A DNA stretch of 26,481 nucleotides, taken from positions 1-26,481 of IMG/VR virus record IMGVR_UViG_3300006969_000027; one strand, 5' to 3'. The position numbers and the translations under genes are program-made. Shown piece after piece: positions 336 through 16,060 of this stretch. Each line of letters starts with the position of its first letter. The stretch's first letter is position 1. The stretch is from a virus. The notes below the pieces were generated by a model. That model saw only the letters and a list, made by a program, of their open reading frames with translations, was not told the origin of the DNA and did not search any database.

Positions 336-494
336 TTAGCGCTGCGGCTCGACCTTGCCACCCTTCCCGGACCGAGCCAGCGCGATCCGCGCCGCCGTCT
401 CGTCGGTGAACGTCTGACTCAGGTACGTCCCGTCGTTCAGCTTCACCCGGAACGTGCCGTTGGTCTGGTTGCCACCACCACACCCACAACCCAT
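336..494 (-). CDS. Cys-rich mini-protein, DUF7196-like (52 aa)
   Basis: The product begins MGCGCGGGNQTNGTF and continues with a short beta-rich domain in which residues FRVKLNDGTYLSQTF are followed by a helix (ETAARIALARSG). A Cys-x-Cys at the very N-terminus followed by a small domain recalls the DUF7196 proteins of actinobacteriophages, whose function is not known. The ATG overlaps the stop of the maturation protease (TGATG), so the two are translationally coupled. It is the last gene of this head transcript, ending 22 bases before the terminator at 281-314. A virion-associated or head-assembly role is only inferred from position. Confidence 0.7.
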   Translation of the reverse strand: MGCGCGGGNQTNGTFRVKLNDGTYLSQTFTDETAARIALARSGKGGKVEPQR

Positions 495-2401
495 CAGCTC
501 TCCCCAATACTCACCAGCAGCTCAGCCCGCTGCCGGTTCCGATCCGCCCTGTCCATCTGCCGGAAGTCGGCCTCGATCTCCCCGTAGGCCGTCCGTCGCC
601 TCCGCCGCCGCGCCAGTACCTCTTCGACCACATCGGCCATCTGCTCACCGGACACCGCCAGCGCATCCTCGGCTGGTGCCTCGGCCGCCAAGGGGAGGCA
701 GCCGGCGGCAACCAACGCAAACGGCTCCGAGTCCGCTGAGTATCCCCGGGGCACCGGGAACGCCGGGACGTTGACCACCAGTGCACCGATCAGCTCCAAC
801 CCACCACCGATCCTCCGCCAATCCCCAGACAGAGGGGAGCGACGCAGCTCGGCACGCTGTTCGTCGGACAGGTGGGCCAGCACCGCACCAGCTACCCAGA
901 TGCCCCACTCGTCTTCACCGGCCCGCACCACGGCCGCTGCGGTGGTCGAGTCGTCGTAGTGGGCGATGGCCTCCATGTAGTTCTTCCGCAGATCAGCATG
1001 CGGACCACCCATGACAATCTTGCCTACTGCGACCCGTTCACCTTCGGCAGTGAGCACCTCGCCGGTGTGGAAGTAGGCGTAGTTGCTGCGGGACCGGGGT
1101 GGGTTGACGCAGTGGGCGAATCCCAGGTGGCAGGTGTCCCAGCGGGCCAGATGCCCGTAGATCTGCCCCTCGGCAGTGACGGTGATCGGCGTCGGCCCGT
1201 CCAGCTCGGCGATGAACCAGTCCGTCGTCGGACCAGCCAGCGCGGCGGAGCCGGCCAGGTTCTGCTCCCCGGAGCAGATCTCACAGTCGTCTTCGTCCAG
1301 CGCCGCCATCACCGCAGCCTCGTCGGGCTCAGCGTAGTTCTCGAACGTCACCTCGGCGAACGCCGGGATGGACACCAGGGTGGCCCCGGAGATCCGTCCC
1401 TTCAGCACCACCATCTCGCTGGGCCGGCAGGAGTCTTCAGAGCAGTGCTGGTTGGGGTCGAACTTGTCCCCCGACTCCCGGTCTTGGATCTCGAACTCCA
1501 GATCGTCCAGGTCAACCGAAGGCTTGAGCACCCCGGCGTCGACCAGCTCGTACGCTCGTTCAGCGTCGTCCCCGGTCAGCCAGTCGCCGGCTGCCCGGAC
1601 ATACTCGTCGTCGATGTCCACTTCGAGCATCCGACCCACGATCACCGACTGCTTGTGACCCTCGCCGGTCTCTTTCTGGAACATGATCGGCAGCGGGAGG
1701 TCACGGTGGCTGATCGAACCCACAGCGAAGCGCCGCTTGTCCCCCGTCGGCTTGTCGATCGGTGCCAGGACCGATCGCCACTTCCGGATCATCGGCACCA
1801 GCGCATCCGCTTCCGCCTGCTCCTCTGCGGTGAGGGCATACTCGTCGTCATCGTCAGACATGTCGACACACTTACCGTCGAGCAGCTCCTGGCCCGGTGG
1901 GCAGGTCTTCTTCGCTAGGGCAGCGGTCTTCTTGGTCCACTGTTCGGGGATCAGCTCCTCGTGTCCGAGCGCGCGTGCCCGCTTCATGATGTGCGCGCGT
2001 ACCTTCGCCCGGTCGCCCGGGTTCGAGCGTCCGTACGCCTGGATGGCGTTCTTCAGGTCGCTGACGTTGCGGATCGGGTAGGAACCGTCGGGCAACGCAT
2101 GGCCCTTCTCTGCGAGCTGCTTACGCTCGTCCGTACCGATATCGGCGAAGCCGTCCACGAACTCGATTACGCCCATCGTGTGCTTGCCTTCCTGGCCGGG
2201 CGGGACACCGAGCGCCCGCGTGTGCAGCCGGTTGCAGAGCCCTTCCGGGTTCTTGGGGAAGTACCTACGCAGGTTCCGTACGCAGCGCTTGAAGTCGCCA
2301 TGCTGACCCCAACGGATCTTGGCTGCGCCTTTACCGTGCACCCAATATTCGATGAACTGCTGGGGCATCCGGCCCGGGACGAACACGCTGGGGTTGGTCA
2401 T
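494..2401 (-). CDS. Capsid maturation protease, multidomain (635 aa)
   Basis: Predicted prohead protease that would cleave capsid or scaffold proteins during head maturation. Several blocks are visible. Residues 1-75 form a domain seen in actinophage proteins (EYWVHGKGAAKIRWG, then FKRCVRNLRRYFPKNP and LCNRLHTRALG). About residues 75-160 look like a DUF6582 helical module (PIRNVSDLKNAIQAYGR, KRARALGHEELIPEQW). After an acidic linker comes the protease-like fold with SISHRDLPLPIMF, GRMLEVDIDDEYVRAAGDW and VSIPAFAEV, the last typical of HK97-type proteases. The C-terminal part (IYGHLARWDTCHLGF, YAYFHTGEVLTAEG, EDEWGIWVAGAVL, LSGDWRRIGGGLELI, VNVPAFPVPRG) matches the conserved half of actinophage maturation proteases. 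It is longer than a minimal protease, and the catalytic residues cannot be fixed by eye. Confidence 0.85.
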   Translation of the reverse strand: MTNPSVFVPGRMPQQFIEYWVHGKGAAKIRWGQHGDFKRCVRNLRRYFPKNPEGLCNRLHTRALGVPPGQEGKHTMGVIEFVDGFADIGTDERKQLAEKGHALPDGSYPIRNVSDLKNAIQAYGRSNPGDRAKVRAHIMKRARALGHEELIPEQWTKKTAALAKKTCPPGQELLDGKCVDMSDDDDEYALTAEEQAEADALVPMIRKWRSVLAPIDKPTGDKRRFAVGSISHRDLPLPIMFQKETGEGHKQSVIVGRMLEVDIDDEYVRAAGDWLTGDDAERAYELVDAGVLKPSVDLDDLEFEIQDRESGDKFDPNQHCSEDSCRPSEMVVLKGRISGATLVSIPAFAEVTFENYAEPDEAAVMAALDEDDCEICSGEQNLAGSAALAGPTTDWFIAELDGPTPITVTAEGQIYGHLARWDTCHLGFAHCVNPPRSRSNYAYFHTGEVLTAEGERVAVGKIVMGGPHADLRKNYMEAIAHYDDSTTAAAVVRAGEDEWGIWVAGAVLAHLSDEQRAELRRSPLSGDWRRIGGGLELIGALVVNVPAFPVPRGYSADSEPFALVAAGCLPLAAEAPAEDALAVSGEQMADVVEEVLARRRRRRTAYGEIEADFRQMDRADRNRQRAELLVSIGES

Positions 2402-2404
2402 GAC

Positions 2405-2629
2405 TTACTCCAGTGCCGCCCGGACAAAGCAGTCCTTGGCCTCCAGGAGCTTCCGCAGCCCGGTGGTCAGCTCCGGTCCGTCAGGAAGCTGAAGAACCAG
2501 CCCTTGAGCCAACATCGCGCAGGTCTTGCTGACCAGCCGCGCGTCCTCGTGCGTCAGATGCTTATACTCGAACCAGCGCATGATCTGCACGGTGGCGGGA
2601 TGCCGCCCGGTCAGGTCCGCTTTCTCCAC
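2405..2629 (-). CDS. Acb2/Tad1-type hairpin protein, probable anti-CBASS sponge (74 aa)
   Basis: The GTG at 2629 overlaps the TAG of the MuF gene by one base, giving MEKADLTGRHPATVQIMRWFEYKHL. The rest reads as two helices, with VSKTCAMLAQGLVLQLPDG, then ELTTGLRKLLEAKDCFVRAAL. This layout (F-x-Y-x-H-L, LA..LV..LPDGPE, LRKLLEAKD..VRAAL) fits the Acb2/Tad1 hairpin family. Characterised members are oligomeric sponges that bind cyclic oligonucleotide signals and block CBASS or Thoeris defence. Its place between the MuF and protease genes suggests expression with the late head genes. A longer in-frame start at 2773 exists but lies inside the MuF gene and would add a low-complexity shadow translation. 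The family call is from pattern memory. Confidence 0.7.
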   Translation of the reverse strand: MEKADLTGRHPATVQIMRWFEYKHLTHEDARLVSKTCAMLAQGLVLQLPDGPELTTGLRKLLEAKDCFVRAALE

Positions 2630-3516
2630 TACGCCTCCAGGTCTCTGGCTCGGATGATCCCACGAACAGCCCGCCGCTGTACCTCGGCGATGGTCTCGGA
2701 CGCAGCTTTCCATCCCCGGTTCGCCATGTCCACGTTCTCTCCCGGTTCGACAACGAGCATCGCGCAGCGGCATTGGATCCGCTCATGCGCCGGCAGGAAC
2801 GGATCTCCGGGGAACTGGGCTGCGAACATGGCCGGTGGGACACCGACCTGGAACATGCCGCTGAGCTGTGCCCGCTGGCCGTCCGCCGCAAAGTGGCTGT
2901 CTCGGGTGCGGGGGTCCATGGTGGCCAGCCACACCTTCTCGAACGGCTGCCCCATCTCCTCCGACAGCACCCTGAACGCGTCGAACGAACCACCGTTGTA
3001 GGCGGACAGGCTTTCGGTCCGGGCCACCACCACACCCCGGCTGCGCCACCGTTCGCTGCGGCTGTTCAGCAGCGTGTTGTCGATCCGTTCGGCCAGCTCC
3101 GGGATGCCCTGACCTTGATGGAGTCCCTCGTCAAGCTCGGTGCGGATCAGCGCGAACACCTCATCGGGGGTCCGGACCATCCGGTTCTGCACCTCTTCCA
3201 GGTGGCGGGCCACATACGGTCGGGCGGAGAAGGCGAACACCTCGCCGAGGATGCGACCGTAGGCGGTGCGGAGAACTCGGGTGATGCCTCCGGTGAGGAA
3301 GTCGAGGAGCAGCCGGTTGAACTTGACCAGTCCGGAGAACACCCCGAACGGGTCGATGATCCGCAGCGCCGGCTTGAGGATGGAACGCCGGATGTCGGAG
3401 AAGAACCCGTCCATCATCCGGATGTAGTCCTCGTAAATGTCCCGCTCACCTTGGATGAGGAAGCCCAACGCGGCCATCCGGTCCGGCAGCCACTGGTCCT
3501 CGCGTAGGTCAGCCAT
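2629..3516 (-). CDS. MuF-like minor head protein (295 aa)
   Basis: Homologue of the phage Mu gpF/SPP1 gp7 group, internal head proteins that contact the portal and help assembly or DNA ejection. The N-terminal 150 residues are helical. The family signature follows: VVVARTESLSAYNGGS at about residue 163, then VWLATMDPRTRDSHFAADGQ at about 195-214, and a closing Cys motif (IQCRCAM, about 249) corresponding to the usual NCRC. Length and position directly after the portal are as expected. The TAG stop overlaps the GTG of the next gene. No effector domain is fused here; the extra domains are on the portal instead. Confidence 0.88.
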   Translation of the reverse strand: MADLREDQWLPDRMAALGFLIQGERDIYEDYIRMMDGFFSDIRRSILKPALRIIDPFGVFSGLVKFNRLLLDFLTGGITRVLRTAYGRILGEVFAFSARPYVARHLEEVQNRMVRTPDEVFALIRTELDEGLHQGQGIPELAERIDNTLLNSRSERWRSRGVVVARTESLSAYNGGSFDAFRVLSEEMGQPFEKVWLATMDPRTRDSHFAADGQRAQLSGMFQVGVPPAMFAAQFPGDPFLPAHERIQCRCAMLVVEPGENVDMANRGWKAASETIAEVQRRAVRGIIRARDLEA

Positions 3517-3720: not shown

Positions 3721-6700
3721 TCACCGTCGATCACGCTCCGCCGCTGCTCGTTCCTGCCGTAGCCGCCTCCGTTGCGCCCGCGCCACTGCCGGGAACATCC
3801 GGTCCAGGATCTTCGCCCGTGCGGGGAACAACTGTCGGAAGTAGACCGGTACCGGCTCGTCCCCGGTCCCCGAGAACCCAACCGGCCCCTCCAGCAGGTA
3901 GAGCGACAACGACTCGGCGAAGTCCTCACTGGCCGCCGACACCCCGTAAGTGGTCACTCCGTTCGGGTAACGAGCCGAATGATCCGGAGTCAGGCTGAGC
4001 CTGTGCATGCCCTCAATGATCTCCGGCTCGAAGTTCGTCGGTGCCCGACGCTGTGCGTCTTTTGTTCCGGCGTCCAACCACTCCCGGGTGTCGTGGATGG
4101 GGTTGTTCCACCGAGCACCCGCCTCGTAGGCGACGTTGTGACCGAACTCGTGAGACGCATGGTTTTGGAGCGCAACCTCACGTTCGGTCCGCGCATAGTC
4201 ATTCCAGATGGTAGTGGAGCCGTCACCGGCTGTCGCCAGCGAGGTGAAGCCGCGCCTGTTGTACTCTCGCGCCCACCGCGCATCTTCTGGGTTGCGTCCC
4301 AGTAGGGCGTTGTACGCCTTCTGGTACTGCTCGGAGCCTTCCGGCAGCGTCTGGTGTACGCGTTCCAGCTTGTCGACCAGGCGCAGGTTCGGTCCGTTTG
4401 GACCAACCGGCCCGTCGGTTTCGACCATGTAGGCAATGCCGTTGCGCCGGACCGCGAAGCCGTGCCGGACCAGGTGACCTTGGATGTTGACGTTGTTGAC
4501 GACGTAGTAGTCGCCCGGTCCAGTGTCTCCAGACATTCGGTTCCACCACGAGCGTCCCGGGGTCAACGCATCCAGCGTCCCCACCTGACCGGAGCGAGCC
4601 TGGCGGGTGCTCCGGCCGCCAGAAGCCGTCCGGTGCCGCCCCCCACCGGCTCGGCTGGTTCCACCACTCCGTCCACCACCCCTCTCGGGGGGTTCGTCGG
4701 CGTCCATGTCCCGGCGTAGCTCGGGGGCCTTGTCGATCTGCTTCTTCCACCCCTTGCACGGCCCCGGGTGGAGCGGGTTACGGCAGAACTCCCCCGGCTG
4801 GCAGGACAGGTGTGCTGCCGCCGTCATGCCGCCGAACAGCTCATCCGCCTCGTCGAGCCACACCTGGGCAATCCCCGGGGCAGCGGAGATGAGGTGGTGG
4901 TGTTCGGCGTAGTCAGTACGACCTTCCGCATTGGGTTGGGCATCCTCCGGATAGGCCGGGACGATCTCACCGAATGCATCGGCGTAACGCAACGACAGGT
5001 CCGCTACCGCGTCCAGGAAGTCCTGCCGCGCATCCCAGGCATCCTCCGCGCCTGCGGCAGCGACGAACCGGTGTCGGCCGGCGGAGTCGAAGACTCGCAC
5101 CGGTTCGGTGATGGGCTTACGTCCGTACCAGTCGGTGTTCAATAGGAGAAGCTTGCCGGTCCAGACTGTCACCGGTCGTCCGTTACGGACCCGGCTGCGA
5201 GGACGAGACCGGCCCAACATGGCGAACTCGTACGGCGTCGGATGGGTACCGGCGATGAATGCCTCGGGGGTGGAGCGTGCCAGCAGGGCGTCGATCTCGA
5301 TCGCGTCCGGGTCGTCGGAGGCCAAGGTTTCGCGGTGCCGTTGGAACCCGGCGGCTATGCGGCGCAGGTCGTTGTCGCCCCGGAAGTCGTAGCCTTGGCT
5401 GGCCCAGGTGTAGCCACCAACGTCGATGTCAGCGTGGATATCGATCCATGCGACACCCGCGTCGTGGTAGATCTCCTCTGCTCCCGCGTTGTACCGCTGC
5501 GAGAAGCCACCACCCTGTACGGAACGGTCCAGACTCAGATACTCGTGGGTGACCCGCAGCCGTCCCGCCTCGTCGAGTCGCCAGGTGCGGGAAGACGTAC
5601 CGACCAGGAAACCGCTACGGTTGTAAATCTCGATTTCGATACCAGCCACCGGCTGCCCGTTGACGTCGTACACCCCGAAGTCGGTGATGTCGGTACGGAG
5701 CCCACTCTCCCGATCGTTGATCGAATAGGCAGCGATCATCGCCTCACGGACCCGCTTCTGCGCCTCGTCCAACTCCTCGGCTGAGCCACCGCTGCTACGG
5801 AGCGACTTCATCAAGTCCGTCTTGGGATCACTACCAGCCGGCAGCTTCTTCTTCGACTCCTTCGTCTCGGTCATGTCCAAGACCCGCTGGGCCTCTTCGA
5901 CAGTGACCTGCTCCTGGTTACGACGCCGACCCCGGGAACTTTCCGCCTCCCGGTCCGTACCCGTGTCCGCTGTACGGCGTGTGCCGCGATCCTCGTCACC
6001 TGGCTGCGTCGTACGACGCCGGCTACGCCGCGCTGCCCGGGGCTCCGGATCCTTGTCGCGGCGCAACTCAGGTGCGACGTCGAGCTGCCTGCGCCAGCCA
6101 CGACACGGACCGGGGTGGAGCGGGTTGCGGCAGTAATGGCCGCATTCCGCATGCCCGATGAGGTCCAGCGCCTGCGACACATAGGTCCCGAACCGGGTGT
6201 AGTCGTGGACCTCCCCGTGGCACATCAACGAAGTTGTGTAGGTGGCCAACATGTCCACCATCACGTCCGGGTCCATGCCCAACCGGTTGGCCAGCGCCCG
6301 CGCCGGCTCCCACGACTCCCCGGTCAGCCGCTCCGCATCCCCGGAGGACACCGGGATGTGACAGTGCAGCTCCCACGCCGGTATCCCCGCGAACTGGCCC
6401 CGACGTGGTGCGGTCAACAGCCGATGTCCCGCTTTCTCCAGCGCCCGCCGGACGATCAGATCAGCGCCTACGATCAGTGCGGCTTCCTGGGCTGGGGTTT
6501 CCGTCGACCGGGGTGGCTGCGGCAACCCGCGCGGCTGCGGAACACCAGGCGCCGGCTCCGGTGGTGATGGCTTGGCCCCGGCCTCAGCGCCTTCAATGTT
6601 CCAGTCCACGCCGAGGGTCTTCTGGATGTCCTTGTTGGAGATCAACGTCGGCTGGGCCAGGACGAGCTGCCACGTCTTCTTCCGCAGCAACTCTTCCTCG

Positions 6701-7938
6701 GACGGGGCGTCGTCCTCGGACCAGTTGCCCGCCTTGCGGACGGCTTCGTCGGACAGCCGCTCGTCCAACGCGAGCGCGTCGGCCTGCCGGTCGGGGCGGA
6801 TGACCAATGCGCTCGGGTCGTACCAGAACATGTAGTCGTCAGGGTCGACGCCGAGGATCGACAGCGCAGCCCGGCCGTAGCCGGAGTACAGCGCATCAGC
6901 AACCCGGGCCACCAGCGGCTCGATCTGGAGCTTGATGGTGGACTCTTCGATCTGCCAGGCGGACCAGTGGTTGGCAGAACCCTGGCCGAGGAGGATCTCG
7001 GCCGGCTGGTCGAGGGCGAGCGCGAGCTGGCGGATAGCCTCCTGGCGCAACTCCAGGGTCTCGGCCTGGAACGGGGTCTCGAACGTCTGCCACTTAATCT
7101 TGTCGATGTACTCGCCAGCGATCTGGACAATGATCGGGACAAGCGCGGCTGCGTTGGACTGGTCGAGCAGCGCCGCCGCCATGGCCCGCTCGATGATCTT
7201 CATGAGTCCTGCTGCGCCGGCTGCCGAATCATCCCCTGACGGAAACTCCAGCTCCTCCGGCAGAAACAGCAGCCCCGCGCCGGCCAGCCGCGAATCGATC
7301 TGGGCGAAAACCTTCTTGCGGAGCTGTTCCAACTCCCGCAAGTCGGGCAGCGCCGCCCGAACAGGGGAGTTGGCCAGGTCGTAGCGTCGCGGATGTGGGG
7401 TCCAGGCCCGAATCAGCAGGTCTTTGCCGGGGTCCAGCTCGTGCTTACCGCCGCCGTAGACATTGGATCGGTCGACGATGACCCGGCCAGCCTGCCGCCG
7501 GATCTCCGAAGTGGAGACGATGTACCAGATGTCCTTCTTGGCATTGGCAACCGACTCGGCGACGATGTAGGACTCGCCAGCGACGTAGAGCTGGATGCCG
7601 AGGGTGCGGAGAGCTTCAGCCTTCTGGGTGGGGCCACCGAACATGGTGCCAGCAACCACGGCCAGCTTCGGGTCGGAGACCTCTTCGCCGGGTCCGCCGT
7701 CTTCGTCGAGCTTGGCCAGATAGAGCCGGCACCGGGACAGTGCATTGCCCATCCAGTCGGCGGCGTAGCGCAGGGCTCCCCGGTCGTCGTAGTGGCGCCA
7801 GGCTTCCTCCTGCCACCGCTGGTCGCCAAGCTTCCAGTTTTTCCAGCTCGTCCCGTCCAGGGCAATCGACGCTGCCGCCGCGACGATGGCCTTCGGCCGG
7901 GCGGGCACAAGGTCTGCGCTGGTGCGCCGGAAGGCCAC
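3721..7938 (-). CDS. Portal protein fused to GNAT-like and zincin metallopeptidase-like domains (1405 aa)
   Basis: Residues 1 to about 450 are a phage portal: YVAGESYIVAE, EIRRQAGRVIV, DQPAEILLGQGSANHWSAW and a C-terminal ISNKDIQKTLGVD stretch. A Pro-rich linker follows at about 460-485. Two Cys modules of the form CRNPLHPGPC(R/K)GW are at about 603 and 1052, each followed by APELRRD. Between them, after a highly charged linker, is a domain (about 735-905) with GGGFSQRYNAGAEEIYHDAG and IDVGGYTWASQGYDF, resembling a GNAT-like acyltransferase fold. After the second module and a Gly/Arg-rich linker comes a zincin-type domain: HEFGH at 1263-1267 gives two zinc ligands and the catalytic Glu, and SEDFAE (Glu1338 or Glu1342) may give the third. 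Ordinary portals are about 450-550 residues. The GTG at 7938 has AGGTGAGG upstream. The tail domains may act in head maturation or be delivered to the host; that is inference. Confidence 0.85.
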   Translation of the reverse strand: MAFRRTSADLVPARPKAIVAAAASIALDGTSWKNWKLGDQRWQEEAWRHYDDRGALRYAADWMGNALSRCRLYLAKLDEDGGPGEEVSDPKLAVVAGTMFGGPTQKAEALRTLGIQLYVAGESYIVAESVANAKKDIWYIVSTSEIRRQAGRVIVDRSNVYGGGKHELDPGKDLLIRAWTPHPRRYDLANSPVRAALPDLRELEQLRKKVFAQIDSRLAGAGLLFLPEELEFPSGDDSAAGAAGLMKIIERAMAAALLDQSNAAALVPIIVQIAGEYIDKIKWQTFETPFQAETLELRQEAIRQLALALDQPAEILLGQGSANHWSAWQIEESTIKLQIEPLVARVADALYSGYGRAALSILGVDPDDYMFWYDPSALVIRPDRQADALALDERLSDEAVRKAGNWSEDDAPSEEELLRKKTWQLVLAQPTLISNKDIQKTLGVDWNIEGAEAGAKPSPPEPAPGVPQPRGLPQPPRSTETPAQEAALIVGADLIVRRALEKAGHRLLTAPRRGQFAGIPAWELHCHIPVSSGDAERLTGESWEPARALANRLGMDPDVMVDMLATYTTSLMCHGEVHDYTRFGTYVSQALDLIGHAECGHYCRNPLHPGPCRGWRRQLDVAPELRRDKDPEPRAARRSRRRTTQPGDEDRGTRRTADTGTDREAESSRGRRRNQEQVTVEEAQRVLDMTETKESKKKLPAGSDPKTDLMKSLRSSGGSAEELDEAQKRVREAMIAAYSINDRESGLRTDITDFGVYDVNGQPVAGIEIEIYNRSGFLVGTSSRTWRLDEAGRLRVTHEYLSLDRSVQGGGFSQRYNAGAEEIYHDAGVAWIDIHADIDVGGYTWASQGYDFRGDNDLRRIAAGFQRHRETLASDDPDAIEIDALLARSTPEAFIAGTHPTPYEFAMLGRSRPRSRVRNGRPVTVWTGKLLLLNTDWYGRKPITEPVRVFDSAGRHRFVAAAGAEDAWDARQDFLDAVADLSLRYADAFGEIVPAYPEDAQPNAEGRTDYAEHHHLISAAPGIAQVWLDEADELFGGMTAAAHLSCQPGEFCRNPLHPGPCKGWKKQIDKAPELRRDMDADEPPERGGGRSGGTSRAGGGRHRTASGGRSTRQARSGQVGTLDALTPGRSWWNRMSGDTGPGDYYVVNNVNIQGHLVRHGFAVRRNGIAYMVETDGPVGPNGPNLRLVDKLERVHQTLPEGSEQYQKAYNALLGRNPEDARWAREYNRRGFTSLATAGDGSTTIWNDYARTEREVALQNHASHEFGHNVAYEAGARWNNPIHDTREWLDAGTKDAQRRAPTNFEPEIIEGMHRLSLTPDHSARYPNGVTTYGVSAASEDFAESLSLYLLEGPVGFSGTGDEPVPVYFRQLFPARAKILDRMFPAVARAQRRRLRQERAAAERDRR

Positions 7939-8289: not shown

Positions 8290-9741
8290 TTAACCGACGG
8301 AAACGCCCGCAACCGGCAGCCGGCCGGAGGTCTCCACCCCGCCGGGGACGGCCACGTTCGCGCGTCCGCGCTCCCGCGAACGTAGGTATGCCTGCGCGTG
8401 GACCAGCGCATCGATTCGGTCCGGAGAGTCCACATCCTCGTCCGGTACCCAGGTGCACTGCTGGTCTTCCAGCTCGACGAACTGCCCCACGTGGTGGACC
8501 CGCCCCTGCTCGTAGCGCATGGCGGTCGGCTCGGCGCGCAGCCGTTTCCCGTGCAGCGCGTGTACATCCTTCATCGGTGGTGCCCCGCCGGGAGGGAACA
8601 GCCCCTCACGCTGCATCTCCTTGTACGCGTCGCCCATGACCTGGGTCAGCCACTGCTTGCCGAAGTTGTCCTCGTAGATGAGCACGTTGGCGTCCAGAGC
8701 CAGGAACAGCTCCCACGCCCGCCGCGCGCCGGCTCGACCGGAGATCTGCTTGGACACGTCGGCGAGCACGTAGTCCTCGTTGTCCACCCCACGGCCCACC
8801 GCGACGATTCCCATCTCGTCCCCGGTGCCGGTACCGGAGGGGTCGACCCCCACCGCGACCATCTTCATCTCCGGCCGCTGCTCCGGCTTCACCCGGTACT
8901 TTTCGATCAAGGCGTGATTCCACAGGGCGCCTTCGACGTCTTCCAGCAGCTCCCCGTGTAGCTCCTGCCGACCGACGGTGGTTCCCTCGTACTCCTTGCG
9001 GAACTCGGCGATGGTGTCCTGGGACAGGTTGGCGAAGTTCTCGTAGGTGGAGCCGGTGGTGACCCGGACCGCCAGGTCCCCAGCCTTCCACCGCCGGTAC
9101 CAGTCTTTGATCAGCTTGATGGGCTTGGGGGTGGTGGTGACCACACACCGGGGACGTCCACCGGGCAGGTCCGCCCGCAGCGAAGGCATGATGCCTTCCA
9201 GCCACACCGCATGCGTGTAGCGCCACTTGCCCAGCTCGTCCAGCCACGCGCCGGCTGCGTTGTAGCCACGGCCGGTGTTCTCGTCGTCGACCCCCTCGAA
9301 GTAGATCTGCTGTCCATCCTTCAACAGGGTGATCATCGGCTTGGGGGCTTTGGCGTAGTGGTAGTCGACCCCCTTGACGTAGCCCTTACGGTGCAGGACG
9401 GCGATGATCCCCGATGGTCCCTCGATGCAGAAGGTGCGGGTGTCGGCGAGGGTTTGGCCGACGACCAGCCATTGGGTGACGTTGCCGGCCCGGTCCCGAG
9501 GGAATTTCAGCGCTTGTTCGACGAGCCACTCCGCTCCGGTGCGGGTCTTCCCCCAGCCTCGGCCGGTCAACATCAGCCAGATGAACCAGTCCCCGGTGGG
9601 AGGGTGCTGTTCCGGCCGGGCGACCCACCACCACTCACCGATGGAGATGTCGTCGAGAACCCACGGCTCCTGCTTCCGCAGCCACTCCTCCTGGACCTGC
9701 GCCGGCAGGGTAGCCAGCCGTTCCAGTGGGGACAGCGACAC
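8290..9741 (-). CDS. terL: Terminase large subunit (483 aa)
   Basis: ATP-driven DNA packaging motor and headful or cos nuclease, acting at the portal. The ATPase half shows Walker A GRGWGKT at residues 60-66, Walker B AWLDE with Asp168 and Glu169, and a coupling motif VTTTPKP at 201-207. The RNase H-like nuclease half shows Asp300 in VGVDPSG, Glu357-Asp358 in LIYEDNF, and Asp441 or Asp444 in DRIDALVHA. Length is normal. The GTG start at 9741 is supported by GGGAGG about nine bases upstream. It is the first gene of the leftward head operon. The likely small subunit is about 7.5 kb away (17305-17859), separated by rightward genes, which is an unusual split. Confidence 0.95.
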   Translation of the reverse strand: MSLSPLERLATLPAQVQEEWLRKQEPWVLDDISIGEWWWVARPEQHPPTGDWFIWLMLTGRGWGKTRTGAEWLVEQALKFPRDRAGNVTQWLVVGQTLADTRTFCIEGPSGIIAVLHRKGYVKGVDYHYAKAPKPMITLLKDGQQIYFEGVDDENTGRGYNAAGAWLDELGKWRYTHAVWLEGIMPSLRADLPGGRPRCVVTTTPKPIKLIKDWYRRWKAGDLAVRVTTGSTYENFANLSQDTIAEFRKEYEGTTVGRQELHGELLEDVEGALWNHALIEKYRVKPEQRPEMKMVAVGVDPSGTGTGDEMGIVAVGRGVDNEDYVLADVSKQISGRAGARRAWELFLALDANVLIYEDNFGKQWLTQVMGDAYKEMQREGLFPPGGAPPMKDVHALHGKRLRAEPTAMRYEQGRVHHVGQFVELEDQQCTWVPDEDVDSPDRIDALVHAQAYLRSRERGRANVAVPGGVETSGRLPVAGVSVG

Positions 9742-9841: not shown

Positions 9842-10106
9842 ATGCCCCACCCACCGACAGATGCCTGCGCCGACGACCACTGCTACTCCCACGACGAGGA
9901 CGAGCCGCTGGCTGCCGGAACGGTTGCCTACATCACCTGTGGTGAGTGCCTGCACCTGTACCAAACGGCTGGGGACCTGGAACGGGCCTACGTCGAGACC
10001 ATGCCCAAGCCGGGTCCCGACGCCAACGGCTTCGTCTGGCCGGAGATCCGTCCCGCAGCCGGCCGAAGAAATCTTCTTCTGTCCCTACTGTTCGCACGAC
10101 TTCTAG
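9842..10106 (+). CDS. Two-part zinc-ribbon protein, reading frame interrupted
   Basis: The ATG at 9842 follows ACGGAGACC and encodes MPHPPTDACADDHCYSHDED, then ITCGECLHLYQTAGDLERAY (first Cys pair, CGEC) and NGFVWPEIRP. The continuation expected for this kind of actinophage protein, EEIFFCPYCSHDF and a stop at 10104, is present but in the +1 frame. The join must lie near 10048-10060, where CGT CCC GCA read as CGTC CCG would restore the product of about 87 residues. In the original frame the ORF runs on to 10360 as a low-complexity shadow. Either a programmed +1 shift, a natural mutation or a sequence error explains this. Two CxxC pairs suggest one zinc site; function is unknown. Confidence 0.6.
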
Positions 10107-10115
10107 GAGGAAGCC

Positions 10116-10538
10116 TTGCCCGCCGTGATCGATCTGCCCGTTGCGCGTGGCCTGCTGGCCCGTGCGGTCCTGACCCAGGGGCCGAGCTTCGTCTACTCGG
10201 CCACCGAGCCAGGCGACGGGACCTCCAGCACATGCCTCAACGCCCCTGTCACCGACGAGCTGTTGGAGATGCTGGGCCAGGAAGTGGACAGCATCCCAGC
10301 GGACGACCCACGCCGGAGGACCGGCTGCCTGATCGGAGTCGCCCTGACCCTCCATGGTGAGACCCGCCATCTGGTCCAGCGGTGGGTTGGGTCGAGCGTG
10401 GGGACCATCCAGGAGGGCATTCCGGGTCTGATGACCTACGCCGCGCGCCGGTACTTCTCCGAGGCGCAGGAGGCGCAGGACGGAGGGGCCACCTGGGGGG
10501 ATGCCTACGACCGGGCTGAGACATCGTGGACCACCTGA
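10116..10538 (+). CDS. Conserved actinophage hypothetical protein (140 aa)
   Basis: The TTG start at 10116 is chosen because AGGAGGAAG stands directly upstream. The product begins MPAVIDLPVARGLLARAVLT and contains TQGPSFVYSATEPG, a single Cys stretch (TSSTCLNAPVTDELLEML), DDPRRRTGCLIGVALTL and an acidic helical C-terminus with AQEAQDGGATWGDAYDRAE. It has no membrane segment or signal peptide. The TGCLIGVAL segment is seen in short unassigned proteins of Streptomyces-type phages. It is the second gene of the rightward block, nine bases after the zinc-ribbon gene. No biochemical role can be proposed. Confidence 0.75.
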   Translation: MPAVIDLPVARGLLARAVLTQGPSFVYSATEPGDGTSSTCLNAPVTDELLEMLGQEVDSIPADDPRRRTGCLIGVALTLHGETRHLVQRWVGSSVGTIQEGIPGLMTYAARRYFSEAQEAQDGGATWGDAYDRAETSWTT

Positions 10539-10557
10539 CGGCCGGGGGGGACGTCTG

Positions 10558-10692
10558 ATGGACGAGTACCAGGACGCCACGAATCATGATCACACGACAT
10601 ACACCTGGCGGCGGCTGTTCGTGGACGTCGTGTTGACGGTGCTGTGCGTCGGAGCCCTGCTCGCGTTGGCAGTGTGGTCGCCGTGGGCCTGA
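10558..10692 (+). CDS. Small single-span membrane protein (44 aa)
   Basis: The product begins MDEYQDATNHDHTTYTWRR and then enters one hydrophobic helix (VDVVLTVLCVGALLALAVW). A G-rich run about eight bases upstream of the ATG is a weak ribosome-binding site. An earlier in-frame ATG at 10501 lies inside the previous gene and adds a shadow-like Arg/Gly-rich stretch, so 10558 is preferred. Overlaps the next gene. Function is unknown. Confidence 0.6.
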   Translation: MDEYQDATNHDHTTYTWRRLFVDVVLTVLCVGALLALAVWSPWA

Positions 10693-10832
10693 GGAAGGTC
10701 GCGGCCGGCATCATCACCGCCTGCGCCATCATCTGCTTCATCCCCGCCGTGGCCATGGGCTTGCCGATCTGGATTCTGTTCTGGCCACCGGCCACCGTGG
10801 TCATGTCCTGGGCCTGGGCGGCGGACTCATGA
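10683..10832 (+). CDS. Small two-segment membrane protein (49 aa)
   Basis: Starting at the GTG at 10683, the product is MGLRKVAAGIITACAIICF, then IPAVAMGLPIWILFWPP and a final hydrophobic stretch ending WAWAADS. It is nearly all membrane-embedded. GTG codons at 10674 or 10683 are possible starts; neither has a strong ribosome-binding site, so coupling to the preceding gene is likely. The TGA overlaps the ATG of the next gene by four bases. No family is recognised. Confidence 0.55.
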   Translation: MGLRKVAAGIITACAIICFIPAVAMGLPIWILFWPPATVVMSWAWAADS

Positions 10833-11281
10833 GGCTGTCCCGGCCGTGCTACGACAAGATGCACCGCTGCCCCGGCTGGGCTGGCGGTGGGGGCCGGTAC
10901 GCCCGGGTACAACGGTGTACGGACGGCCGGCTGGTTGGTACCCACGACAACACCCTGTACACGAAGCGCCTGTGGTGGCTGCGGTTCAACCACTGCACCG
11001 CGTGTGACGTACTGGTGTTGCCGTATGCGGTGCGGTTCCTGGACCCAACCAACTGGCGGTCCGAGATCCGGATGCAGCTCATGCGGCTGGAGAACCGGAC
11101 CTACGGTCTGATCATCGAACGAAACCGGTGGGAAGGCGAGCTGACGTTCTCGGTTGCGGTGTTCCTGGACGAGCTGCCCCGTCGCCGTGTGCTGGGCTTC
11201 GGCATCGACGTAGGGCGTCGGGCGCTGACCGTCGGATACGCGTGGCGGAGGAAGAAGACAAACCCGTGTCGAGACTCTTGA
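10829..11281 (+). CDS. Conserved Cys-containing actinophage protein (150 aa)
   Basis: The N-terminal half has RPCYDKMHRCPGWAGGG, then GRYARVQRCTDGRL and LWWLRFNHCTACDVLVLPY, with several paired Cys (CxxC in HCTACD) that could hold a metal. This half matches a type of small actinophage protein of unknown function. The C-terminal half (about residue 85 on, ENRTYGLIIERNRWEGEL, FSVAVFLDELPRRR, GFGIDVGRRALTVGYAW) reads like a separate beta-rich protein, so the gene may be a fusion of two small genes. The ATG overlaps the previous stop. The last bases overlap the next gene, whose GTG lies at 11266. Confidence 0.75.
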   Translation: MRLSRPCYDKMHRCPGWAGGGGRYARVQRCTDGRLVGTHDNTLYTKRLWWLRFNHCTACDVLVLPYAVRFLDPTNWRSEIRMQLMRLENRTYGLIIERNRWEGELTFSVAVFLDELPRRRVLGFGIDVGRRALTVGYAWRRKKTNPCRDS

Positions 11282-11565
11282 CCGCGTACGAGGCTGGCGC
11301 GGTGCTCGGGGTGGGTGAGGCAACCATCCATCGTTGGGCATCGCGCCGGCTGCTGCCGTACGTCCGGGTCGACGAGGGACGCAAGAGTGGGCGTCGGTTC
11401 GCCGAGGAGGACGTGTTGGGAATGCTGCATATTCTGTGGCTTCTCGCGGAGCGGGAGGTGGGTGGTGAGGAACCGGGGCAGGGGCCTACGGAAGTGCCGC
11501 TACGACGGCAAGACCATCTTCCGCACCTGGGATCAGGCTCGGAAGGCGCTGAGCCGGCGGGCTGA
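11266..11565 (+). CDS. MerR/excisionase-type helix-turn-helix DNA-binding protein (99 aa)
   Basis: The GTG at 11266, with GGAGGAAG about 13 bases upstream, gives MSRLLTAYEAGAVLGVGEAT, then IHRWASRRLLPYVRVDEGRK. This is the classic winged HTH of excisionase-like and BldC/MerR-like proteins: a helix ending AYEAGAVLGV, a recognition helix ATIHRWASR, and a wing with VRVDEG..SGRRFAEEDV. A short helical tail follows. The product probably acts as a small regulator or directionality factor. No integrase is visible, so a regulatory role is more likely than excision. It overlaps both neighbours in the rightward block. Confidence 0.75.
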   Translation: MSRLLTAYEAGAVLGVGEATIHRWASRRLLPYVRVDEGRKSGRRFAEEDVLGMLHILWLLAEREVGGEEPGQGPTEVPLRRQDHLPHLGSGSEGAEPAG

Positions 11566-11908
11566 GCCGGGGCGCCCGTACTGGTGTCCGATGGCTGGTG
11601 GCTACCACATGACCCGTCTGTCACCGGACGAGTACAACCGCAAGAGAGCTGAAGGGGATCGGATCATGTTCGAGGAAGCAGTCGAGGCCGCGCTGACGAA
11701 TGCGCCGCAACAGATCATCGAGACCAGTCACCATCTAGCCTGCCCGGTGTGTGGGGCGCTGATGAAGCTCACCCTGCTGGCGCAGGTACAGCCGGTACAG
11801 ACCGGGGTCGGGGTGGTGGAGACGTTCGACGTGACGGTGGGGCTGGACCACGCTGAGGAAGGGCACCGGTCCCAGAGCCGGTTCTATGCCGGTGTAGGCA
11901 AGCTCTAG
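11462..11908 (+). CDS. Zinc-ribbon-like protein with a second Cys domain (148 aa)
   Basis: The frame is open from 11315, but GGGAGGTG before the GTG pair at 11462/11465 fits a start there. The N-terminal part RKCRYDGKTIFRTWDQARKA, then GRPYWCPMAGGYHMTRL, matches short actinophage proteins of the form C..GK..F..W..A..AL...YCP..GGYH.T, probably a zinc ribbon. After a charged segment comes a second part from an internal ATG at 11666: TNAPQQIIETSHHLACPVCG, then ALMKLTLLAQVQPVQ, with one CxxC and a C-terminal beta region. It could be two fused genes; the internal ATG has AAGGGG upstream. It ends just before a promoter-like site. Confidence 0.65.
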   Translation: MVRNRGRGLRKCRYDGKTIFRTWDQARKALSRRAEPGRPYWCPMAGGYHMTRLSPDEYNRKRAEGDRIMFEEAVEAALTNAPQQIIETSHHLACPVCGALMKLTLLAQVQPVQTGVGVVETFDVTVGLDHAEEGHRSQSRFYAGVGKL

Positions 11909-11911
11909 GGT

Positions 11912-11951
11912 GTATACTCAGGCCAGACAAACCAGAGACGGAGACCACTGA
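11912..11951 (+). promoter_or_regulatory. Rightward promoter-like site and leader
   Basis: TATACT at 11914-11919 is a good -10 box, about 33 bases before the ATG at 11952. CAGACA and ACGGAGACC follow, as in the leader before 9842. No convincing -35 box is seen 16-18 bases upstream. It would start a transcript covering the RNA-ligase-like gene and the tiny membrane-protein array. Confidence 0.45.
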
Positions 11952-12206
11952 ATGCCGCCCCGGATGACGCACCTCTACTTCGTGGTGCCCGACGATGACA
12001 TCGATGCCCGCCTGGTTGTCGTGGAGTCGCTACTGAAGGCGCTGCGTGAAGGCTGGGTCGTTGGTTCCGCCGTCTCCACTGCCACATCCGTTCACTACAT
12101 CCTCGGGAGGCGTGGTGCGTATCCCTACCCTGTTCCTGCGGGACCCCCGTACCCTCCGGGTCCGCCCGGAAGTCCGACCGGGGTGCGAGTGGGTTCTCGA
12201 CGGTGA
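11952..12206 (+). CDS. Hypothetical protein (84 aa)
   Basis: The product begins MPPRMTHLYFVVPDDDIDAR, then LVVVESLLKALREGWVVGSA, which looks like a small alpha/beta domain. The last 30 residues are Pro/Gly-rich (YPYPVPAGPPYPPGPP) and coincide with the start of the next gene in another frame, so the tail may be incidental. GGAG about nine bases upstream supports the ATG at 11952; an alternative ATG at 11964 would drop four residues. It is the first gene after the promoter-like site. No family is recognised. Confidence 0.55.
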   Translation: MPPRMTHLYFVVPDDDIDARLVVVESLLKALREGWVVGSAVSTATSVHYILGRRGAYPYPVPAGPPYPPGPPGSPTGVRVGSRR

Positions 12207-12600
12207 AGGCCAAGCCACCCGCATGTACGACGGGATTGGCCTGCTGTTCGACGGTGCCGGCTGGTACCTGAGCGGTAGCCGATCCGCCAGCGGGCAGGAG
12301 TCCTGGCGAGCCGTCGGCGAAGACGGCCGGCTGATGTCCTGGATAGCTGAGGGACTTGGCGAGGCGCAGACGCTCATCCCCGGCACCTACGAACTGTGCG
12401 GTCCGGACATCGTAGGCAACCCGGAAGGCTTCGCCGAGCGGGTGCTGATCCGGCACCAAGGGCTTCCCGGATTGGACAACGTACCGCGCAGCTACGACAG
12501 TCTCTCCGACTTTCTGCGGAGCTGGCCCCATGAAGGGGTGGTCTGGCACCATCCAGCCGGCAAGATGGCCAAGCTCCGCTCCACTGACTTCCCCACCTAA
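12115..12600 (+). CDS. RNA-ligase-like protein lacking the nucleophilic lysine (161 aa)
   Basis: The GTG at 12115 follows GGGAGG by four bases. The product opens with RIPTLFLRDP, then RPGCEWVLDGEGQATRMYDG, GTYELCGPDIVGNPEG at 90-105, and a C-terminal block HEGVVWHHPAGKMAKLRSTD. This order matches the DUF5565-type RNA ligase family: motif I (K-x-DG), motif III/IIIa, motif IV (EGVVWHH) and motif V (K-x-K). The motif I lysine that carries AMP in these ligases is Met37 here (TRMYDG). The usual RREVK-like stretch after motif I is also absent (YLSGSRSASGQ), and motif V reads KLR. Glu93, Glu140 and Lys153 are kept. As it stands it should not adenylylate, so it may be a binding protein or a decayed ligase. 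Overlaps the previous gene by 92 bases. Confidence 0.65.
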   Translation: MRIPTLFLRDPRTLRVRPEVRPGCEWVLDGEGQATRMYDGIGLLFDGAGWYLSGSRSASGQESWRAVGEDGRLMSWIAEGLGEAQTLIPGTYELCGPDIVGNPEGFAERVLIRHQGLPGLDNVPRSYDSLSDFLRSWPHEGVVWHHPAGKMAKLRSTDFPT

Positions 12601-12618
12601 CGGAAGGAGTACAGGCAC

Positions 12619-12726
12619 ATGCCGTCCTACATCCGCAGGGTCATCCTGCTCGCTGCCGTCATCGGCGGGATCGGGTTGGCCTTCTGGGTCAAGAACACAT
12701 TGTTTCTCATGGAGGTGAAGCCTTGA
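12619..12726 (+). CDS. Tiny membrane protein 1 of the array (35 aa)
   Basis: The product is MPSYIRRVILLAAVIGGIGL, then AFWVKNTLFLMEVKP: a short basic N-terminus and one hydrophobic helix. GGAAGGAG lies upstream of the ATG with a gap of about nine bases. The TGA overlaps the next start. First of twelve tightly coupled genes. Confidence 0.6.
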   Translation: MPSYIRRVILLAAVIGGIGLAFWVKNTLFLMEVKP

Positions 12727-12809
12727 TCAGCCGTGTACTGGTCGCCTTAGGCGTCCTGGCCATCGTCGCCGGGGTGCTGGGGGCAATGCTCAACGGAGGT
12801 GGCCGGTGA
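12723..12809 (+). CDS. Tiny membrane protein 2 of the array (28 aa)
   Basis: A TTG start overlaps the previous stop and has GGAGGTGAAG five bases upstream. The product, MISRVLVALGVLAIVAGVLG, then AMLNGGGR, is essentially one transmembrane helix. The Gly-Gly codons near its end double as the ribosome-binding site of the next gene. Confidence 0.5.
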   Translation: MISRVLVALGVLAIVAGVLGAMLNGGGR

Positions 12810-12907
12810 GTCCGGGGGAGAAGCTCGGGATGAAGATGCTCGCCTGGGCCACTGGGATCTTCCTGGTCGTCTGGGCCTGTGAACGGATTGGGGTGAGCGG
12901 CAAGTGA
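12806..12907 (+). CDS. Tiny membrane protein 3 of the array (33 aa)
   Basis: The GTG overlaps the preceding TGA by four bases and follows GGAGGTGG. The product MSPGEKLGMKMLAWATGIFL, then VVWACERIGVSGK, has one hydrophobic segment and a single Cys. The stop overlaps the next GTG. Confidence 0.5.
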   Translation: MSPGEKLGMKMLAWATGIFLVVWACERIGVSGK

Positions 12908-12999
12908 GCTGGGGAGCAGGGTTCATTGGGTTTGTCATCGCCCTCGGTACCGGGCTAGCGATCGGCTACATGATGGGCCTCGGGCAGGCAGCATGCTGA
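12904..12999 (+). CDS. Tiny membrane protein 4 of the array (31 aa)
   Basis: The GTG overlaps the preceding TGA (GTGA). The product MSWGAGFIGFVIALGTGLAI, then GYMMGLGQAAC, is a Gly-rich transmembrane helix ending in Cys. It has only a weak ribosome-binding site, so translational coupling is likely. Confidence 0.45.
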   Translation: MSWGAGFIGFVIALGTGLAIGYMMGLGQAAC

Positions 13000-13229
13000 C
13001 CGCGCCAGCTCCCAGCCCGGGACCCGGCGGTCCGGTCATCGACCCAGGCCCCATCCAGACCGACCCCATGGGTTGGCTGCAACGGTTCATGGCCTGGGAT
13101 GGAGCGTGGCCGCTGATCGTCGCCGTGGTCCTCACCGCGATCGGTATCGGCGTCGCCCGGCGTCACCTTGCCCTGTTCGCGTTCCTGACCGGCACCGCGC
13201 TCGGCTTCTTTGTGGGGAGCGTGCTGTGA
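12993..13229 (+). CDS. Membrane protein 5 of the array (78 aa)
   Basis: This is the largest member of the array. A Pro-rich N-terminus (MLTAPAPSPGPGGPVIDPGP) is followed by two hydrophobic segments, WPLIVAVVLTAIGIGVA and LALFAFLTGTALGFFVGSVL. The ATG overlaps the end of the preceding gene by seven bases. The topology is probably a hairpin in the membrane with the Pro-rich end outside or in the cytoplasm. Function is unknown. Confidence 0.6.
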   Translation: MLTAPAPSPGPGGPVIDPGPIQTDPMGWLQRFMAWDGAWPLIVAVVLTAIGIGVARRHLALFAFLTGTALGFFVGSVL

Positions 13230-13381
13230 AGGGAAAGAAGCCCGTAGTGTTCCTCATCGTTGCGCTGATCGTCTTCGGTGTGGCGTACCGGCCGGACATT
13301 GCCGCCGACACGCTCACGGGACTCCTCGGCGGCTTCCGGTCCCTGATCGAAGGTGCCGGAGACGTCTGGAGGAGCCGCTGA
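13226..13381 (+). CDS. Membrane protein 6 of the array (51 aa), paralogue of the next gene
   Basis: The GTG overlaps the preceding TGA. The product begins MKGKKPVVFLIVALIVFGVA, one transmembrane helix, then YRPDIAADTLTGLLGGFRSL and an amphipathic tail. Its order (basic start, helix, Y/A-x-PDIAA, Gly-rich amphipathic helix) is the same as in gene 7, so the pair looks like a tandem duplication. The pattern is familiar from small proteins of actinobacteria and their phages, with no known role. Confidence 0.6.
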   Translation: MKGKKPVVFLIVALIVFGVAYRPDIAADTLTGLLGGFRSLIEGAGDVWRSR

Positions 13382-13539
13382 TGGTCAAGAAGATCCTGAC
13401 CTGGGGCGGCATCGCCTTCCTGATCCTGTACGTCGCCATTGCCCCGGAGGCTGCCGCGAACGTCTTCAAGTCGCTCGGTGGGGGCCTGATGGACATAGCG
13501 GAAGGCTTCGGCGACTTCTTCGTCAGCCTGATCGCATGA
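13381..13539 (+). CDS. Membrane protein 7 of the array (52 aa), paralogue of the previous gene
   Basis: The product begins MVKKILTWGGIAFLILYVAI and continues APEAAANVFKSLGGGLMDIA with an amphipathic tail ending FFVSLIA. It aligns along its length with gene 6 (APEAAANVFKSLGGG against RPDIAADTLTGLLGG). The ATG shares one base with the preceding stop, and GGAGGAGC is upstream. Confidence 0.6.
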   Translation: MVKKILTWGGIAFLILYVAIAPEAAANVFKSLGGGLMDIAEGFGDFFVSLIA

Positions 13540-13700
13540 GATCGATCCTGGTGCCCGTGGTCGTCGGTGCGATGACCACGGGCTGGTTCGCGTTTCTGTA
13601 CACCTGGCTGGAGCGGGACCACTTCGACCCCGGGGTGCTGATCTTGTGTCTGCTGCTGACGATGCTCACATTCCGCGTGTTGACCAGGAGGAGCCAATGA
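13536..13700 (+). CDS. Membrane protein 8 of the array (54 aa)
   Basis: The product has two hydrophobic stretches, MRSILVPVVVGAMTTGWFAF and GVLILCLLLTMLTFRVL, joined by a charged loop (LERDHFDP). The ATG overlaps the preceding TGA by four bases (ATGA). It is probably a two-span membrane protein of unknown role. Confidence 0.6.
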   Translation: MRSILVPVVVGAMTTGWFAFLYTWLERDHFDPGVLILCLLLTMLTFRVLTRRSQ

Positions 13701-13843
13701 AACGTCTGCTTGTCGGGGGGCTGTGCACCGCCGCCCTCCTGTTCGTGCTGATCTGGGGAGCCGGCGGCAGCCCTGTCTGGGTGCTCGTCGCCGCCGGCTT
13801 CGTCGTAGCTGCGGTAGTGATGCAAGTGAGGATGAGGGACTGA
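13697..13843 (+). CDS. Membrane protein 9 of the array (48 aa)
   Basis: The product MKRLLVGGLCTAALLFVLIW, then GAGGSPVWVLVAAGFVVAAV and a short basic tail, has two transmembrane segments around a GAGGSP turn. AGGAGGAG stands five bases before the ATG, which overlaps the previous stop. Confidence 0.6.
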   Translation: MKRLLVGGLCTAALLFVLIWGAGGSPVWVLVAAGFVVAAVVMQVRMRD

Positions 13844-14007
13844 TGCCGAACTGGTTCACGTGTGGGGTGGTGGGTCTATACGTGCTGGTCAACGCCACTG
13901 TTGCTTACGTGGCGTTGGACACCAACTCGTTCCCGCTGAAGGTGTTGGCGGTGGTCATGGTCCTGGCAGGATGCGTGGCAGCGTTCCGGGTAGGGAGGCA
14001 CCGATGA
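13843..14007 (+). CDS. Membrane protein 10 of the array (54 aa)
   Basis: The product MPNWFTCGVVGLYVLVNATV, then AYVALDTNSFPLKVLAVVMV and a basic tail (FRVGRHR), has two transmembrane segments with a short polar loop. The ATG shares one base with the preceding TGA. Confidence 0.6.
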   Translation: MPNWFTCGVVGLYVLVNATVAYVALDTNSFPLKVLAVVMVLAGCVAAFRVGRHR

Positions 14008-14099
14008 ACCGGAGCTGGGGCGGTAAGAGCCTCGGGTTGGCCATCGTGCTCGCGCTCCTGGTTGCGGCGTATTGGAACGGCTGGATCCCACCGTGGTGA
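14004..14099 (+). CDS. Tiny membrane protein 11 of the array (31 aa)
   Basis: The product MNRSWGGKSLGLAIVLALLV, then AAYWNGWIPPW, is one transmembrane helix with a Trp-rich end. GGGAGG precedes the ATG, which overlaps the previous stop. Confidence 0.55.
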   Translation: MNRSWGGKSLGLAIVLALLVAAYWNGWIPPW

Positions 14100-14191
14100 A
14101 CCTGACCCCGGGGGACTCCCGCACCGGCTGCTACATCACGCTACTGATTGTGGGGGCAGCCCTGGTGCTACTGGCCTTGGTCCTGCTGTAA
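14096..14191 (+). CDS. Tiny membrane protein 12 of the array (31 aa)
   Basis: The GTG at 14096 overlaps the preceding TGA; another GTG sits at 14093. The product MNLTPGDSRTGCYITLLIVG, then AALVLLALVLL, is a C-tail-anchored hydrophobic helix. The TAA lies four bases before the terminator hairpin and ends the rightward array. Confidence 0.5.
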   Translation: MNLTPGDSRTGCYITLLIVGAALVLLALVLL

Positions 14192-14195
14192 CACG

Positions 14196-14235
14196 CGACG
14201 CCCCCCCGGGGTCAGCGGCCCCGGGGGGGGCGTCG
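14196..14235. terminator. Strong bidirectional hairpin terminator
   Basis: A 16-bp arm (14196-14211) pairs with 14219-14235, with one extra G, across a seven-base loop. It lies between the rightward array ending at 14191 and the leftward gene ending at 14261. The core CCCCCGGGGTCAGC is the same as in the hairpin at 281-314. Confidence 0.85.
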
Positions 14236-14260
14236 TTCGGAATCCATTCCGAACGAAAGC

Positions 14261-14719: not shown

Positions 14720-14846
14720 CTGCAACCTCCGATTGATTGACCAATCTTGCTGTATGACCGTACCATACAGGTCTGACACTTCCGATCCTCGTCTCCGTGG
14801 TACCGTCCGGCTATCCGTGATGGAGACCCGTGATGGGAGTGGCGTG
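14720..14846. promoter_or_regulatory. Divergent intergenic control region
   Basis: This 127-base gap lies between the leftward gene starting at 14719 and the rightward gene at 14847. A possible rightward promoter is TTGACC (14737-14742), 18 bases, then TACCAT (14761-14766). GGGAG at 14835-14839 serves the rightward ATG. Leftward boxes are not clear. Confidence 0.35.
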
Positions 14847-15910: not shown

Positions 15911-15912
15911 GA

Positions 15913-15986: not shown

Positions 15987-16015
15987 CATACTGGTCCGGA
16001 CGGGTTTGCGGACAC

Positions 16016-16053: not shown

Positions 16054-16060
16054 GCACGTC

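Follow-up and report, generated by a model that had tools for sequence, protein, structure and literature searches.

An uncultured phage portal protein with GNAT-like and zincin-like domains behind short His/Cys modules

A portal-anchored polyvalent protein

The window analyzed here is the whole 26,481-bp IMG/VR virus record IMGVR_UViG_3300006969_000027, in which one uninterrupted open reading frame (ORF) of 1405 amino acids runs on the minus strand from position 7938 to 3721 with a GTG start. The ORF joins a phage portal to a GNAT-like domain and a zincin-like metallopeptidase domain, with a short His/Cys module (module A) before each of the two. It is a portal-anchored polyvalent effector protein, and its novel part is a pair of tag motifs, module A and a second motif (motif B, K/R-H-L-P-G-x-H-[DN]-Q-x-x-H-G) found at similar junctions in relatives. 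We consider it probable that the enzymes are held in the head via the module, freed by proteolysis, and act in the host. A plus-strand reading of 3721–7938 was rejected because of seven stops. The parts of the ORF are as follows.

3721..7938, minus strand: single ORF of 1405 amino acids (portal, module A1, GNAT-like domain, module A2, zincin), identical in L002 and with a diverged full-length relative in L051
6169..7938, minus strand: portal domain, residues 1–590, core ending at about 583 (phrog_776)
6088..6153, minus strand: module A1, residues 596–617, H596-x2-C599-x3-C603-x4-H608-x3-C612-R-G-W615 (motif pattern, alignment)
5104..5829, minus strand: GNAT-fold domain, residues ~704–945, with a near-canonical coenzyme A (CoA) loop Q-G-G-G-F-S (predicted structure and fold search)
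4834..5103, minus strand: mostly helical region, residues 946–1035, conserved in L051 and L076 (low model confidence)
4741..4812, minus strand: module A2, residues 1043–1066, H1043-x2-C1046-x5-C1052-x4-H1057-x3-C1061-K-G-W1064 (HLPGRHDQKTHG instead in L051)
3739..4608, minus strand: zincin-like metallopeptidase domain, residues 1111–1400 (alignment, predicted structure, fold search)
4138..4152, minus strand: HEFGH active-site motif, residues 1263–1267 (H, E, G, and H invariant in 14 relatives)
3913..3927, minus strand: E1338-D1339-x2-E1342, candidate third zinc ligand helix (E, D, and E invariant in 14 relatives, helix in the model)

Residues 6–580 gave a full-length profile match to the portal family phrog_776 (E = 7e-150), which, together with the gene order TerL–portal–MuF, identifies a phage portal. 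The sequence-only reading had proposed a 1405-residue ORF starting with a portal; it is real, on the minus strand. The identical ORF was found in two further metagenome records (in full in L002 and in part in L003), and a diverged full-length relative from a different metagenome (L051) is also one ORF, of 1542 amino acids, with identities to the window of 77% in the portal, 62% in the GNAT, and 38% in the zincin part. An assembly error or frameshift fusing separate genes, which the sequence-only reading had named as its possible undoing, is therefore extremely improbable; the portal and GNAT parts are also under purifying selection. What speaks for such an artefact is L235, where similar pieces are separate ORFs and the frame of module A and zincin overlaps the preceding ORF. 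Horizontal replacement of the zincin between the window and L051 was considered and set aside, as the tree was poorly resolved and a common clade was not rejected (approximately unbiased test, p = 0.14).

Module A is conserved as a peptide

The window contains two copies of the pattern C.NP.HPG.C.G (pattern A), and 100 dinucleotide-preserving shuffles of the window contained none. Two CRNPLHPGPC modules had been noticed earlier near residues 603 and 1052, and they begin exactly at Cys603 and Cys1052. A scan of viral contigs yielded 77 stretches with 58 distinct cores. Positions left free by the pattern were still conserved (Leu 98%, Pro 98%, Lys 91%, and Trp 98%) while synonymous codons varied freely; module A is therefore selected as a peptide, and its reading as a mere DNA recombination joint was ruled out on the same grounds. 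Among 26 sequences, a His upstream of the pattern was invariant and an upstream Cys was present in at least 90%, which extends the motif to H-x2-C-x3..7-C-x4-H-x3-C-[KR]-G-W. The module holds five candidate metal ligands, whose conservation suggests metal binding.

Nine exact matches to pattern A were retrieved from 84,980 bacterial and archaeal genomes, and these were attributed to chance because every one fell in a short ORF that lacked the conserved flanking residues. As far as a scan for the exact pattern can tell, the motif appears to be phage-specific. Dozens of uncultured phages carry it in the head operon; MuF was found at 73 and a portal at 66 of 84 A-motif loci (within the fetched flanks), usually in the order TerL, portal, MuF, A-protein, protease. 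The majority of A-proteins stand alone, are 1200–2060 amino acids long, and have the module near the N-terminus, from which it is separated by only ~4–20 residues in some stand-alone cargo proteins (L043, L012, and L235). Pfam searches of 26 A-bearing proteins detected the ADP-ribosyltransferase (ART) exoenzyme domain in 17 and NUDIX in six, and kinase-like domains were also present.

Among portals of the window's family, every ORF with a tail longer than 200 amino acids has module A. The module follows the portal core after 19 residues in six of seven distinct phages and after 15 in the remaining one, in a sample mostly chosen by motif. All relatives returned by a search with the portal alone carry module A.

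The GNAT-like and zincin-like domains

The GNAT domain was modelled with AlphaFold on an alignment of the window with L051, L067, L076, L096, and L213, and the model was searched with Foldseek. The predicted local distance difference test score (pLDDT) was mostly above 90 over residues ~704–945, a confident structure for a domain previously placed at about 735–905, and of the 50 best fold matches in the PDB nearly all were GNAT acetyltransferases (best probability 1.00, E from 1e-4). In the window, the R/Q-x-x-G-x-G/A loop of this fold reads Q-G-G-G-F-S, with Ser in the final G/A position; in L096 it is Q-G-K-G-F-A. A GNAT-based scan of cellular genomes retrieved no relative. Members of the same family follow B motifs in roughly ten other ORFs and sit on MuF in other phages. 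The 'capsid maturation protease' gene of the cultured Microbacterium phage Jera (gp5, L218:2528-4531) encodes a MuF-type protein with a C-terminal GNAT-family domain, and a domain of the same GNAT family stands at the N-terminus of a minor head protein in Alteromonas phage R7M (L219).

For the C-terminal domain, in which an HEFGH motif with a downstream Glu had been noticed, an alignment of 14 homologues showed HE[FY]GH with invariant H, E, G, and H, and invariant E1338, D1339, and E1342. The AlphaFold model (mean pLDDT 88.9) places HEFGH and E1338/D1339/E1342 on two helices, so the HExxH helix and a downstream ligand-bearing helix lie within a predicted zincin fold; residues 1263–1342, where the lack of such a fold would have spoken against the earlier proposal, are thus modelled as a zincin. 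In Foldseek searches against the PDB, the lethal factor catalytic domain was matched with probability 1.00 and PPEP-3 with 0.99. The kinship to lethal factor and PPEP is at the level of the fold, because identities were 12–14% and global template modelling (TM) scores were low. Anthrax lethal factor and PPEP (M34-type zincins) share the predicted fold and the HExxH motif with a downstream Glu helix, whereas the window zincin is found among phage virion genes and has no delivery or receptor-binding part. The best viral structural matches were minor capsid proteins from two metagenomic myoviruses, Myoviridae sp. ctguh8 and ct9dX1 (BFVD A0A8S5MFJ7 and A0A8S5TIF5; E = 3e-12 and 1e-9), which are also head proteins; however, they are 15–21% identical and are named minor capsid protein rather than portal.

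Assignment to a known sequence family was rejected, as searches of Pfam, PHROGs, and PDB sequences gave nothing firm. The window domain had no Pfam match at E ≤ 0.1, the M34 sequence profile was not matched, the PDB sequence search reached lethal factor only at E = 0.51, and none of 10 records exceeded the curated cut-off of Pfam MPTase-PolyVal (PF18818). In the pair L201/L202, the ratio of nonsynonymous to synonymous substitution rates (0.19) shows purifying selection on the zincin. The zincin family is carried by portals of other families (L201 and L203), maturation proteases (L205, L208, and L212), and MuF proteins (L210 and L211). The same zincin family also forms the C-terminal end of a giant polyvalent protein, a single ORF of ~5,885 amino acids (L236:1959-19613; G006, contig IMGVR 3300043607_000039) with an HPRG-type motif close to the N-terminus; a 2,259-amino-acid part of it (L213) also has a GNAT match and a HipA-like kinase stretch.

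Cargo exchange behind the portal

The proposed comparison of related portals revealed that the cargo behind the module varies (GNAT, zincin, ART, and NUDIX). The portal module is followed by GNAT–A–zincin in the window and by GNAT–B–zincin in L051, where motif B (HLPGRHDQKTHG) stands in place of the second module A. The arrangement is A'–B–zincin in L171; B, an unassigned part, B, NUDIX, and ART in L004, whose portal is 71% identical (the last two domains were read from sequence motifs); and ART after the portal module in L069/L083 and L020/L235. L235 encodes most of the pieces separately, in the order portal–A–ART, A–GNAT–A–GNAT, A–zincin, A–x, MuF, protease. Its A–zincin open frame (L235:7824-8849) overlaps the end of the A–GNAT–A–GNAT ORF and has its module ahead of the first usual start codon, which may reflect frameshift joining or an indel.

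The earlier suggestion that the modules are joints by which domains were added held in part: portals of 71–77% identity bear different cargo after the same module. The modules are, however, peptide elements rather than DNA joints only, they also head stand-alone genes, and they are interchangeable with motif B. The portal looks like an attachment point for exchangeable proteins, which the phage may bring into the host cell.

Motif B and a possible third motif

At least 120 stretches with motif B were found, at similar junctions in portals, MuF proteins, proteases, and stand-alone cargo proteins. The motif is His-rich, with adjacent basic residues in most copies. B-bearing cargo proteins have ART, ddrB-ParB, zeta toxin, HNH, or 2H domains, and the Pfam repertoire of A- and B-bearing proteins together comprises ART, NUDIX, kinase-like, ddrB-ParB, zeta toxin, 2H, portal, MuF, and S78 protease. 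Motif B also divides domains within maturation-protease polypeptides (L100 and L145), with a 2H-like domain, read from sequence, before the motif in L100; a B-like HLQGLHDQKDHG is present in L004.

In a set of 14 zincin ORFs gathered regardless of motifs, nine carry A, B, or HPR[GD]..G.[FW] N-terminal to the zincin (seven of 12 without the two query ORFs), compared with none in shuffles. The last motif occurs where A and B are absent (L205, L204, L209, and L203) and may be a further equivalent tag. Tentatively, and with somewhat less than even confidence, we propose that A (CxNPLHPGPCKGW), B (HLPGxH[DN]QxxHG), and perhaps HPR[GD]..G.F do the same job: all would be sorting or processing tags, not described before, with whose help tailed phages first bring exchangeable effector enzymes into the head and afterwards release them, whether these are fused to portal, MuF, or protease or stand alone.

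Head-gene neighbourhood

The portal gene is flanked by the following head genes.

8290..9741, minus strand: terminase large subunit, upstream (search of neighbouring ORFs)
2629..3516, minus strand: MuF-type head morphogenesis protein, downstream, without effector fusion (Phage_Mu_F, E = 8e-14)
494..2401, minus strand: capsid/head maturation-protease-type protein (phrog_859, phrog_18402)

No cultured phage matched the window at the DNA level. The closest cultured portal relative is that of Actinoplanes phage phiAsp2 (Pas4), at 37% identity. Its gene order (portal, small ORF, MuF, protease-type gene) is that of the window, but its portal ends without module, cargo, or any extension. A match spanning the portal and the next gene in Arthrobacter phages Rizwana and AWGoat was discarded, as it is an overlap into the next gene with no module. 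PADLOC returned no match. The window also contains a tRNA-Met gene (CAT anticodon; 15913–15987) on the plus strand, opposite to the head genes, and six minus-strand ORFs at 9936–16602 without a Pfam or PHROG match at E ≤ 0.01, which may not all be genes.

Relation to known systems

The principle of fusing effectors to head proteins is already known, because portal and MuF fusions to PBECR, 2H, InPase, RelA/SpoT, NUDIX, and ART domains have been published (PMC5512222, PMC9503650, PMC5576092), with PBECR, 2H, InPase, and NUDIX as precedents on the portal itself (PMC5512222, PMC9503650). As in the polyvalent proteins of Iyer et al. 2017 (PMC5512222), at least two unrelated enzyme domains (GNAT and zincin, and ART in relatives) are found in one polypeptide of a portal-terminase phage among the head genes, although the window zincin is below the Pfam MPTase-PolyVal cut-off. 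Neither His/Cys tag modules nor GNAT and zincin on a portal were found described.

MuF polymorphic toxins (Jamet et al. 2017, PMC5576092) are similar in that a head protein adjoining the portal carries exchangeable C-terminal effectors, and 20% of putative MuF toxins have a metallopeptidase domain (PMC5576092). The likeness to MuF-effector fusions drawn from the sequence was borne out, since the same zincin and GNAT families sit on MuF in other phages. Here, in contrast, the carrier is the portal, the 1405-amino-acid polypeptide has no MuF domain, MuF is a separate cargo-free ORF (2629–3516), and the cargo is joined via A or B. In the open-access literature searched, which leaves most subscription journals outside, neither a portal with GNAT and a lethal factor-like zincin nor, by sequence, the paired A/B tag motifs were found described. 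In Arthrobacter phage Rizwana, sequence inspection of gp17 (L220:5240-7912) found a 2H-phosphoesterase-like insert between the MuF-type and protease parts of one polypeptide.

Proposed role and alternative explanations

The C-terminus of a portal faces the capsid interior, and a portal ring has twelve copies; each portal subunit would for this reason carry its enzymes into the head. The module would be a small tag that binds metal, directs cargo to the head, and fixes it in place. Proteolysis, either by the maturation protease of the neighbouring gene or by the zincin itself, would free the enzymes, which would then leave with the DNA to act on proteins or nucleotides of the host as infection begins. 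Action in the host is proposed because enzymes of the ART, NUDIX, GNAT, and kinase-like types depend on substrates from the host and, like effectors, differ from one close relative to the next; this variety of cargo argues for targets in the host cell over a role in maturation.

The modules could instead be mainly processing sites. A cut at each of them, made by the head maturation protease or in cis by the zincin, would give portal, GNAT, and zincin in the procapsid. A module stands before each cargo domain, motif B likewise divides maturation-protease polypeptides, fused cargo must be freed to exit the capsid, and zincin autoprocessing was proposed by Iyer et al., citing phage P1 DdrB (PMC5512222). 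We regard this as unlikely, given that a cut at a module lying ~4–20 residues from the N-terminus, as in the stand-alone proteins above, would release almost nothing, and that five conserved His/Cys with G and W exceed the needs of a cleavage site. Slightly less likely still are zinc-knuckle-like DNA-binding tags that hold the cargo on the packaged genome for ejection with the DNA. C-x3..5-C-x4-H-x3-C followed by a basic KGWK resembles viral zinc knuckles, and the His-rich motif B mostly has basic neighbours. However, the classical CCHC knuckle is C-x2-C-x4-H-x4-C, unlike C-x3/x5-C-x4-H-x3-C in the window (C-x3..7 across relatives), and binding by a module of low-confidence structure is putative. 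A packaging or docking tag is favoured over both, because the module also heads stand-alone proteins. It is improbable that the extension acts within the capsid, with the zincin maturing head proteins and the GNAT acetylating capsid or portal lysines, and has no host role: although it is placed on the portal, and maturation-protease and MuF polypeptides carry members of its zincin family too, most sampled portals lack the extension and that of phiAsp2 ends before it, close kin have ART or NUDIX of no obvious use in head maturation, and a separate protease gene is present.

Several points weigh against portal-anchored effectors that are tagged, freed, and delivered. When structural proof of module A was sought, the modules were modelled at pLDDT ~40–60; because of this low confidence, metal binding is suggested by conservation only. 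Neither a recognised cleavage site in the ORF nor a convincing internal start for the zincin alone was found (Met1038 has no convincing ribosome-binding site), and a domain that is joined to the portal anyway would not need a tag. A tblastn search of the zincin against 50,697 cultured-phage records retrieved no relative, so no isolate is at hand. Packaging, cleavage, injection, and copy number are all inferred.

Little is known, except in a few models including T4 and N4, about the sorting of enzymes into phage heads and their release into the host. With the portal as carrier, the number of effectors in each virion would be fixed. A short conserved tag before many effector domains, whether on portals, on MuF proteins, or in genes of their own, would provide a sequence handle for virion-delivered effectors across uncultured phages and a testable cargo-loading signal.

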